Positions 20,546 to 23,834 of a DNA stretch of 64,000 nucleotides are shown piece by piece. The notes under the pieces were generated by a model. The model saw only the letters and a list, made by a program, of their open reading frames with translations. It was not told the origin of the DNA and ran no database searches. How positions within the stretch are numbered: the stretch's first letter is position 1; every line of letters begins with the position of its first letter. The DNA lies in assembly GCA_921293015.1 (NCBI GenBank), contig OV121086.1, positions 47,199,402 through 47,263,401 of the forward strand, given 5' to 3'. The translations under genes were made by a program, and so were the position numbers. The stretch comes from Phorcus lineatus. Its lineage: Eukaryota; Mollusca; Gastropoda; Trochida; Trochidae.

Positions 20546-21654
20546 AACAGAAAGACCTCACTCTTTAGAATAAGGCGTGTGCAGTGTTTAAATCAGCGAC
20601 ATCCCTCTCCATTGAAATTTTTGAAAATCATCCAAGTTCAAATATAACTATGGTAATAACACTCAACACTATAGCAAATTAACACAATAAAGGATAATAA
20701 AAAATCATTGGTGTACTTCCTGTCACCCAATATATTTACCGTCCCTGTACAAATAGAAATGAGCAACACCATCCTCAATTATACAGTACATTGTCATTTA
20801 AGTTTCAATATTTTTTTGGTCTAAGATGTCTAGATGATGTTTGATTGAACACATTTGTGTAGATAACATTGTACAATATGTATCCTTATAATACCTGCAT
20901 TCGTAGTATATGTAATGTGAATTTGTTTATTAATGTTATCTAAGTCTTTTAGTCTCTTCATTAATCTTTACAAATGAATCTAATAACCTGATATATCTGA
21001 CATTTTACAACATATATTCTGATGGTTTAAGATAACTGGTTATTTATTTCATAGTCACATCCAGTTGAAATGTACAGGAATGGCTACTCTAGCTTGGTTA
21101 ACACAAACGTTCTCATCAATTGTATTGGCACCTGGTTAAGTTAATTTGACCGATTGACTAACCAGATCATTCGTGACCAGTCAATGTTGGATACTCCTGT
21201 AAGTAATAAAGAAGTTAATTTGGTGTCGGACAACTGGACCAGTACTGTCCATCTGGTATTTATCACGTCAGCTTGGTTTATAACAAGACTGCATTTGTTT
21301 GTAACAGGAAACGGTTGTAAAAATTATTCAACATCACTTGGTCATCACAAGTGCTCGTTATTCCAAGAGTCTCATTTGAAAAGGATAAAGTAACAGTTCA
21401 GTTATTAAAGACATTGCGTTTTTATCATAATATGAGGTAACAAGTTTCTTTAGTCAATCTAACTGAAAGTATATGCAAAAGACTGACTGTGACAAGAATA
21501 CAGAACACATATACAACAATCAACATACTTATCAATATAGCTCTCATCCTCATTAAGTAACGTAACTGAATACTTATCAATTAAGTTTAACACATCAAAT
21601 TGTATGAACGTGACAGACTATTTTTGCAATGAATATATATGTATATATATATAT

Positions 21655-21835
21655 ATATAGATTAAATATAACATACTTCACATAGTCGTTTGAAGAATCA
21701 TTTTAATCCGATACTAGTATTTCGTCAATAGTATTGACTCATCAGGGATGAAACGATATGATCGTTAACATCGCATTACAAGCGTTTTTATAACAAAATA
21801 TACGCACAATGGACAAGGATATATTGTAAATTATG
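21655..21835 (-). repeat. PLE terminal arm (pLTR), left
   Basis: This 181-bp arm lies downstream of the minus-strand coding region, separated by about 170 bp of 3' untranslated sequence. It is in sense orientation relative to the endonuclease frame and contains the sense hammerhead motif at 21697-21762. Confidence 0.92.
21697..21762 (-). ncRNA. Type I hammerhead ribozyme, sense copy
   Basis: Read on the minus strand, all conserved parts are present in order: outer stem I ATCAT, inner stem I ATCC, core CTGATGA, stem II GTCAA/TTGAC, core GAAA, a short stem III within ATACTAGTAT, a cleavage site after ATC, then GGAT and ATGAT closing stem I. The internal loop of stem I and the very short stem III are typical of hammerheads in Penelope-like elements. 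The expected role is self-cleavage of the element transcript. Predicted cleavage is between 21710 and 21709. Confidence 0.9.
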
Positions 21836-22005
21836 CTAATCAGGTGACATCATGGTTCTTCCTTGTTGGTCTTCTGATTGACACAATCACTCTCTTATGA
21901 GTTTACCCCTTGAGCAATATGTTAATGTGACATAATCCCTTTTGTTTTTAAATAGCTCAATTGTAGTTATATGAGATATATGTCAGTGATTTAAGGGTAA
22001 TCATC

Positions 22006-22844
22006 TCATTGTTTATTTAGTGAGGGTCTATAGGTGTCAATGAAGGACTCTTCAAGTCGTAAAAGTGCATTTGAGACACTGCCCATGTTAGATTTATGAA
22101 ATAATTTATAGAAAGGAAATATTTTGAAATCACCATTTGCACAAGTAGAAAGATGTTTATTTACAAATAAACAGCGGTATCTGCTATCGTTATTGTGTTG
22201 TCTGTGTAAGGTTACCCTATTTCTTAGGCATTCAGTTTTACCAATATAGGATTTTTTACACTTAGGGCACGTTATTGCATAAATGACATTTTTTGAATTG
22301 CAGTCAAAGTTAGATTTTATTTCAAATGTTTTGCCATTGTCAAATTTGAAAGACGAGCCTTCTAATAAATGGGGACATGTGCCACATCTTTTATTTGAAC
22401 ATTTGGAAACTGAAGGTCTTTCTGTTGGGTTTTGAATACCATCATATTTAGCCCTTGTTAAGATGTGTTTAAGATTTTTTGGCTGTCTTTTGCTTTTAAT
22501 GATTTTATTTCTTTTCAACATTTGGCCTAACCTCTTGTCTTGACTAAGCATCGGTAAGTTCCGATGTATAACAGGGAATAATTCCGCATTGTTTTTATTA
22601 TGTGTTGTCACAAAAGAGATTGTGTTTTGGTCCTCATTTATTTTATCTTTAGGAGTACGTAACTCTTCAAGAGTGAGTGCCTGTGCTTTATTTATTCCAT
22701 CTTTGATAAGAGGTTCTGGATAGCCTCGCTGCAATAGTGAAGATTTTAGTTCCTCTAATCTTAGAGACCTGAGGTTTTCATTACTAATTATGGCACAGAC
22801 ACGTCTAGCTAGACAATAGGGCAAGTTTGTTTTGACATGTCGTT
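22006..22844 (-). CDS. Penelope-like element protein, C-terminal GIY-YIG endonuclease part (5'-truncated)
   Basis: About 280 codons are open on the minus strand, ending with TGA at 22008-22006. The frame continues upstream of the TTG at 22824 to the junction with the inverted arm (reading RHVKTN before LPYCLARR), so there is no real start codon: this is the tail of a longer polyprotein. Numbering from residue 1 at 22824, the LPYCLARR segment that follows the reverse transcriptase thumb in these elements is at 1-8, and a Cys cluster (C142, C147, C150) matches the metal-binding motif before the nuclease. The GIY-YIG nuclease spans about 180-270: VIYAITC at 180-186, YIGKT at 193-197, R201/R203, H207, E258-E259 and N270. 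In the family this domain nicks target DNA for reverse transcription. Without the polymerase domain this copy cannot be autonomous. No internal stop or frameshift is visible, which fits a young copy. Confidence 0.9.
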
Positions 22845-23025
22845 CATAATTTACAATATATCCTTGTACATTGTGCGTATATTTTGTTATAAAAACGCTT
22901 GTAATGCGATGTTAACGATCATATCGTTTCATCCCTGATGAGTCAATACTATTGACGAAATACTAGTATCGGATTAAAATGATTCTTCAAACGACTATGT
23001 GAAGTATGTTATATTTAATCTATAT
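22845..23025 (+). repeat. PLE terminal arm (pLTR), right, inverted
   Basis: Reverse complement of the left arm with one mismatch. It is joined to the coding sequence where the reverse transcriptase domain should be, so it replaces the missing 5' part of the element. It carries a hammerhead motif on the plus strand, antisense to the endonuclease frame. Confidence 0.92.
22918..22983 (+). ncRNA. Type I hammerhead ribozyme, inverted copy
   Basis: On the plus strand: outer stem I ATCAT 22918-22922 with ATGAT 22979-22983; inner stem I ATCC 22931-22934 with GGAT 22971-22974; CTGATGA 22935-22941; stem II GTCAA 22942-22946 with TTGAC 22952-22956; GAAA 22957-22960; stem III within 22960-22969; predicted cleavage after C22970. 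Every core nucleotide expected for activity is present. It would be functional only in a transcript running opposite to the endonuclease frame. Confidence 0.9.
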
Positions 23026-23053
23026 GTGACCTTGCGTTTGAACCAATTCAACT

Positions 23054-23172
<119 letters not shown>

Positions 23173-23202
23173 CGCGTTGATAAAAAAAACAACAGCACAC
23201 AA

Positions 23203-23244
23203 CATTTTCTCCTACATGTTTCGATTTACTCTTCAGGGAGAATG
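23203..23244 (-). ncRNA. Degenerate hammerhead-like motif
   Basis: On the minus strand: stem I strand CATTCTCC (23244-23237), CTGAAGA (23236-23230), a collapsed stem II GTAAATC with only the closing G-C pair, GAAA (23222-23219), CATGT, then A as the cleavage base (23213) and GGAGAAAATG (23212-23203), which pairs with the first strand over GGAGAA. The core fits the CUGANGA...GAAA...UH consensus, but stem II is essentially lost, so activity is doubtful. It lies inside the hairpin at 23218-23260. Confidence 0.45.
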
Positions 23245-23260
23245 AAGAGTAAATCGAAAC
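23218..23260. repeat. 18-bp perfect hairpin
   Basis: GTTTCGATTTACTCTTCA, a 7-base spacer GGGAGAA, then the exact reverse complement. A weaker outer pairing exists between AGCGCGTTGAT (about 23171) and ATCAACGCTTT (about 23262). The loop-side sequence TTCAGGG resembles the ATCAGGG next to the PLE ribozyme, so this may be the end of another, older Penelope-like copy. Confidence 0.75.
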
Positions 23261-23279
23261 AATCAACGCTTTAAGCTAT

Positions 23280-23834
23280 GAAGACTGTACACTTAAATGA
23301 ACTTTCACCTTATATATATATCAGTGTTATGTCCATGCATTTACTTACTTGATATTGTAAAGCAAGTACAGGTAAACACTTTAAGATATTACAATTGTGA
23401 TTATGACTGTGATTGTGATTATTAAAGGATTATGAAACAGTTCCTTCGTAGTTAATTAGATAGTCATTCAGTTTATTTGCTTATCAAGAATATTGACCAT
23501 GCATCTATTAGGCGATCATTTGTAATATGACAGTCATACCTTAAGCATTCTCAAGATGTATCCTGATGCTTATGTCCATAATACCACTTGGATAAAAATC
23601 TTCATTCACACAAAAAAGTAAATAAATGTAAGAGATTTAGAAATATAATGTATAAGATAGAATTTGTATTAATTTTCGATTTATTTGAAAAAATACCGCT
23701 TTATGGTTTGTGGTAAGTATCAATTTAACATATTGTTAAAAGTTGAAAATTGATACTTGATAAAAAGCCATTATCTGTCATACTTCTTTTCGAATTCATA
23801 TTTCTTTGTTATTCTGGGTATTGTTCGAAAGTGA
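23280..23834. other. No gene seen
   Basis: AT-rich sequence between the hairpin and the start of recognisable unit B homology. No coding, RNA or repeat signal was identified. Confidence 0.5.

Follow-up and report, generated by a model that had tools for sequence, protein, structure and literature searches.

Inverted pLTRs and 3′ extensions count among the peculiarities of Penelope-like elements (PLEs) in a 2022 curation guide (PMC8969392). 5′-truncated copies bounded by inverted pLTRs, with a tail optionally present on one inverted pLTR, were described by Arkhipova et al. (2013; PMC3846280), and the figure legend of a review covers minimal hammerheads in PLE repeats (PMC6155905). The biochemistry of one such element, Poseidon of Anolis, has been reported by Frangieh et al. 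(2024; PMC11167929): the protein has a preference for AT-rich DNA and, in vitro, cuts and extends the two strands. It starts internally on the RNA, at two adjacent sites, and the tail corresponds to the sequence that separates these sites. For the superfamily, published work already covers inverted arms, the tail and the ribozyme, and the anatomy is known. A count of tails per insertion was not found in the literature searched, a scope that left subscription papers mostly outside. LINE-1 elements generate 5′ inversions by twin priming, in which two primed DNA ends give an inverted 5′ part, often with microhomology at the join; a different nuclease is used there and the second primer anneals internally.

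The window analysed here is a stretch of 64,000 nt from Phorcus lineatus (GenBank assembly GCA_921293015.1, contig OV121086.1, positions 47,199,402 to 47,263,401). Self-alignment of the insertion in this window yields two inverted arms of 181 nt each with a spacer of 1009 nt and a single mismatch (arm position 158, window 21812, G vs. T). An earlier note, made from the sequence alone, had described these arms with one visible difference and had stated correctly that inverted arms are known for the superfamily (PMC3846280, PMC8969392); it had missed the 32-nt tail, the (TA)n on both sides and the hammerhead motif in each arm (Table 1). The tail lies beyond the right arm, and many other copies have it at their ends as well. 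The (TA)n directly adjoins the left arm, and on the right side it comes after the tail. The insertion is made up of two inward segments, an untailed one of approximately 1190 nt from the left end and a tailed one of 213 nt (181 + 32) from the right, which meet at 22844/22845 with a microhomology of 3 bp (CAT) common to both sides. When a 120-nt arm query was run against the assembly, 40 of the 41 matches listed were 100% identical over all 120 nt; the similarity of the arms is thus not due to chance. The G at the mismatch is confined to the window copy, where only the left arm has it (1 of 71 base calls across the family) (matches shorter than 30 nt or below 95% identity were dropped here and in the SNP and join comparisons). 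It is one of four differences in the long arm (1190 nt) that have no parallel in any other match, while the short arm (181 nt) has none. Since the base is private, the idea that position 158 is a family polymorphism showing two templates was rejected.

Table 1. Features of the insertion and its target site in the window (64,000 nt; position 1 is its first nucleotide).
Feature	Position	Strand	Remark
(TA)n run, target side of untailed end	21642..21659	.	last 5 nt overlap the element start
Left arm: 3′ terminal segment of element, sense orientation (ORF strand), untailed end	21655..21835	-	
Type I hammerhead ribozyme motif with very short stem III, left arm	21706..21749	-	descriptor match
Rest of 3′ untranslated part of element	21836..22005	-	
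3′ part of element ORF (L034 residues 510-788): post-RT-core region, Cys-rich linker, GIY-YIG nuclease	22006..22844	-	
GIY-YIG endonuclease domain (PF01541; residues 208-296 of 301-codon frame)	22024..22290	-	
3-bp microhomology CAT, join of long and short cDNA	22845..22847	.	
Right arm: inverted short arm, 3′ end of element antisense to ORF	22845..23025	+	
Hammerhead ribozyme motif, right arm	22931..22974	+	descriptor match
32-nt tail, extension of element at right end only	23026..23057	+	
(TA)n tract, target side of tailed end	23059..23170 (23059-23132 and 23135-23170)	.	

The endonuclease frame is unbroken, as the earlier note had stated: the minus-strand frame 22006-22911 is open over 301 codons and matches GIY-YIG (Pfam PF01541, E = 1e-7, 32.6 bits, cut-off 22.6). 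In a longer copy (L034) a single open frame of 788 residues holds both RVT_1 (residues 280-467; E = 5e-6, with 26.8 bits under the cut-off of 29.6) and GIY-YIG (residues 695-783; E = 4.8e-7). The window copy starts downstream of this RVT_1 match, so the join does not lie at the beginning of the polymerase domain, where the earlier note had placed it, but after the RT core (residue 510 of L034). The RT core with YLDD is gone, the nuclease is kept, and no upstream Met is left. The region retained between RT core and nuclease is presumably the thumb together with the Cys-rich linker, and we take DKGGAVVIMD and RYLDD of L034 to fit an RT of the PLE/telomerase branch. Repeats of the pLTR type occur as inverted arms in 27 chained insertions and as a direct partial tandem in M23. 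To judge by this anatomy, with predicted RT and GIY-YIG domains in one frame, pLTR-like ends, a tail and a hammerhead motif, the element is an endonuclease-bearing Penelope-like element. A search against solved structures returned endonuclease II (2wsh, E = 0.01 and 0.019) and apolipoprotein A-I (E = 0.5), which were taken as chance matches. An extra open frame lies upstream of the RT frame in another of the longer copies, L037 (3200-4141, minus strand; best Pfam E = 0.05, unconvincing), and L020 (M11) shows an internal jump in direct orientation from q1771 to q2406, where q is the distance from 21655.

A hammerhead descriptor of core and stems matched once per arm and nowhere else in the window; 200 shuffled versions of the window gave no match. 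Scanning the window with Rfam at the gathering score gave no match; a permissive scan gave 16.7 bits for RF00008, whose gathering score is 48.5. The tailed segments of L012 (M46; q1-55) and L032 (M27; q1-54) stop beside the predicted cleavage point of the hammerhead (q55/q56). Such end points would be expected of cDNA from self-cleaved RNA, and two cases are too few to claim anything.

Genome searches covered the assembly of 958 Mb in 74 contigs. For each query 40 candidates were scored; the candidate numbers are lower bounds (at least 1207 for the element query and at least 658, 1094 and 1184 for the others). From the 40 scored of 1207 candidates the element query obtained 123 matches, and the best-scored copies are 98-99% identical. 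The family is young, with many near-identical copies, and the window copy itself is an ordinary, young, 5′-truncated Penelope-like insertion; in this respect the earlier note, which had called it a young truncated Penelope-like element with inverted arms, was right. It had attributed the near-identity of the arms to a recent insertion or to arm-to-arm conversion. The young age is borne out, and conversion is not needed, since the best-scored copies are 98-99% identical anyway and the one base at which the arms differ is a private change of the left arm. Among 106 matches beginning at the element end, the end points are spread over positions from q30 upward, and on this ground the idea that the break marks a domain boundary was rejected; the floor of this range results from the dropping of matches shorter than 24 nt, the reference spans 3000 nt, and the fetched stretches clip some copies. 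The longest arms stand head to head in L038 (G000:C9:57204100-57211900), where both are 2772 nt long with 99.86% identity and each contains an open frame of 789 codons. One outer end of L038 is tailed and the other is untailed.

The part worth following is the pairing of tails across copies, the single window copy being ordinary. For a first set, 68 loci were merged into 52 stretches, and matches of at least 25 nt and at least 90% identity that lie at most 30 bp apart were chained. To be scored as tailed, an end had to be preceded by 32 nt of which more than 80% agree with the tail. Nineteen chains, including the window copy, have an element end on both sides, and all 19 combine one tailed with one untailed end (tail on the right in 10, on the left in 9). 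A second set was picked by the tailed end and comprised 44 matches, 40 of them full length; 20 of these 40 places had already been covered and the other 20 were examined, dropping matches shorter than 25 nt or below 88% identity. Eight of the 20 new places, among them L087, are two-armed, and their other end is untailed in 8/8; the remaining 12 are one-armed, complex or clipped by the boundary of the stretch. Taken together, 27 of 27 two-armed insertions chained from BLAST matches carry one tailed and one untailed end. Among 103 scored ends (ends not starting at q1, shorter than 28 nt or below 90% identity were left out), 60 are tailed and 43 untailed, numbers that come from selected sets and hence give no genome frequency. 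If ends were independent and tailed in 60/103, the pairing would arise by chance, by our own arithmetic, with a probability of approximately 1e-6 in the first set and 0.001 in the second.

Ends too distant or too short to chain were sought with a pattern scan, which gave 32 facing pairs and adds three fitting cases: M51/L038, L077 with a 13-nt arm and M41 with an 8-nt arm. The pairs M39, M45 and L081 were dismissed because only (TA)n is present at the supposed second end, and M3, M7 and L087, whose worn ends the pattern scan missed, were kept from BLAST. Two exceptions were found. M24/L037 is tailed at both outer ends, the second tail being incomplete, and a tiny insertion consisting of 33 + 13 nt (L019 with L088, M48; approximately G000:C7:47351415-47351462) is tailless at both. 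Chains, long-armed and very short-armed cases combined, the one-tail pattern holds in 30/32, so the pairing is strong and not absolute. The tiny insertion sits in a (TA)n tract beside a larger copy. At the untailed end of L030 (M12) the element opens with its first 15 nt twice in tandem, as though reverse transcription had begun again.

The two arms of an insertion also tend to share family SNPs. At q151 they agree in all 14 of the first-set two-armed insertions that cover this SNP (19 examined); independent arms would agree in approximately 60% of cases per insertion and in all 14 with a probability of 0.0009 (own arithmetic). Over the 4 of 7 SNP positions that are comparable, 17/18 arm comparisons agree, where 10.7 would be expected under independence, and the only disagreement is that of M12 at q689. 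This agreement suggests that the arms usually come from the RNA of one source copy, a resolution that extends to the copy and not to the molecule. The joins of the first set are simple in 15 and complex in 4 of the 19 insertions. An overlap of 2-7 bp is present at seven of the 15 simple joins (probability by chance 0.156 per join, binomial 0.0046); the other 8/15 are without overlap and contain 1-19 nt of filler, which a mismatch near the end of a match can mimic. A rule by which greater length goes with the tailed segment, or with the untailed one, was rejected, since the tailed segment is longer in 10/15 simple joins of the first set and in 4/8 of the second; thus, neither segment leads.

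Insertions are tied to (TA)n, and some tailed sides abut other, mostly AT-rich sequence: a pure TA run beside the element is shorter than 8 nt at 13/60 tailed ends vs. 2/43 untailed ends. Target site duplications are unreadable because (TA)n masks them, and part of the TA run could have been made during integration. On the far side of the (TA)n tract in the window, positions 23171-23330 belong to another repeat family, for which 40 of at least 353 first-look candidates were scored. This repeat has a 45-nt hairpin and ends that differ in extent, and looks like a very short insertion, two-ended and with a tail of its own, of a different element.

Pairing, shared alleles and joins point to an integration in which, probably, reverse transcription was primed from each of the two target ends, began at two neighbouring start sites on RNA from one source copy, and yielded two cDNAs that were end-joined to give a 5′-truncated insertion into (TA)n. 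The activity of the Anolis protein on both strands and its two adjacent starts (PMC11167929) speak for this reading. The element protein would cut both strands within (TA)n, and, as the structure of the product implies, each DNA end would then prime reverse transcription of the element RNA. One start would be the site at which the tail begins and the other would lie 32 nt further in. The cDNAs may then be joined through microhomology, CAT in the case of the window copy, and the inverted arm would be the second, short cDNA and not an inherited pLTR unit. Against two-ended priming speak the tail exceptions L037/M24 and M48, the disagreement of M12 at q689 and the 8/15 joins without overlap. What also counts against it is that the bulk data of Frangieh et al. 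(2024; PMC11167929) give no start-site difference between top and bottom strand. The RVT_1 match of L034 and the Rfam score of the hammerhead, both under their thresholds, weigh on the same side. More tentatively, and with some doubt on our side, integration in this family might be a built-in asymmetric two-ended reaction in which each target end is extended from a different one of the two adjacent start sites, with a single source copy supplying the RNA, much as though one RNA were gripped by a two-headed enzyme whose active sites are non-equivalent.

The earlier note had read the arm as a 181-bp pLTR that replaces the RT at a domain boundary, and had proposed a genome-wide junction search to tell a propagating derivative from a single event. 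A fixed inverted pLTR in a compact, nuclease-only unit that propagates has a parallel in Adineta vaga, where inverted pLTRs flank 5′-truncated copies and one of them also measures 181 bp (PMC3846280). We consider this very unlikely here. An exact 33-mer spanning the junction occurs at one place in the assembly (reversed control: 0), and only 1 of 41 listed matches to a 120-nt junction query crosses the join; the junction between arm and coding sequence being found once, the window copy is not a propagating derivative. Inverted arms in other copies measure 8 to 2,772 nt, and the 5′ breaks lie elsewhere. With arm lengths and truncation points varying this widely, the length of 181 bp is particular to the window insertion. 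That the inverted repeat is a product of the assembly is an explanation to which we assign next to no probability: the left arm carries a private base that sets it apart from the right one, the tail is on one arm only, and the same assembly contains 26 further two-armed chains whose dimensions differ.

Snap-back, or self-priming on one template, was proposed for palindrome-bearing Penelope junctions of Adineta vaga (PMC3846280) and would also produce an inverted repeat. As an explanation for the window copy it is unlikely, since at the join element position 181 is connected with position 1190 through 3 common bp and the sequence is therefore not mirrored around this point; moreover, the outer ends start at different sites, and the tail differs between the ends in 30/32 two-ended insertions. 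Two separate head-to-head insertions into one (TA)n tract, followed by deletion of the middle, would agree with (TA)n tracts that are seemingly hit repeatedly and with the other repeat at the far side of the tract. This sequence of events is highly improbable, as no TA run is left between the arms, the source allele is common to the arms in 14/14 insertions, and one tailed and one untailed end are combined in 27/27 chains.

The family is useful, being young and rich in near-identical copies, and every two-ended insertion in it preserves the two ends and the join that a single integration produced. Near-strict tail pairing together with single-source arms is a specific constraint on PLE integration, which can be tested in the published in vitro system.

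The family resembles LINE-1 twin priming in its probable priming from two ends, its inverted part and the frequent microhomology at the join; unlike in LINE-1, each outer end falls on one of two fixed positions close to the 3′ end of the RNA. With the endonuclease-bearing Penelope elements of Adineta vaga it shares 5′-truncated members that are flanked by inverted pLTRs (PMC3846280). For some of those, target duplications of 8-10 bp are described, whereas here (TA)n hides any, and many more copies are available here. There is a likeness in anatomy to Poseidon PAc of Anolis carolinensis, which has RT and GIY-YIG in one frame, a hammerhead motif at the pLTR/ORF junction, an optional tail of 30-40 bp and an AT-rich target (PMC11167929). 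The target here is mostly (TA)n, and our data come from surveying some of the copies in a genome, whereas PAc is known from biochemistry, in which extension of both strands was demonstrated in vitro.
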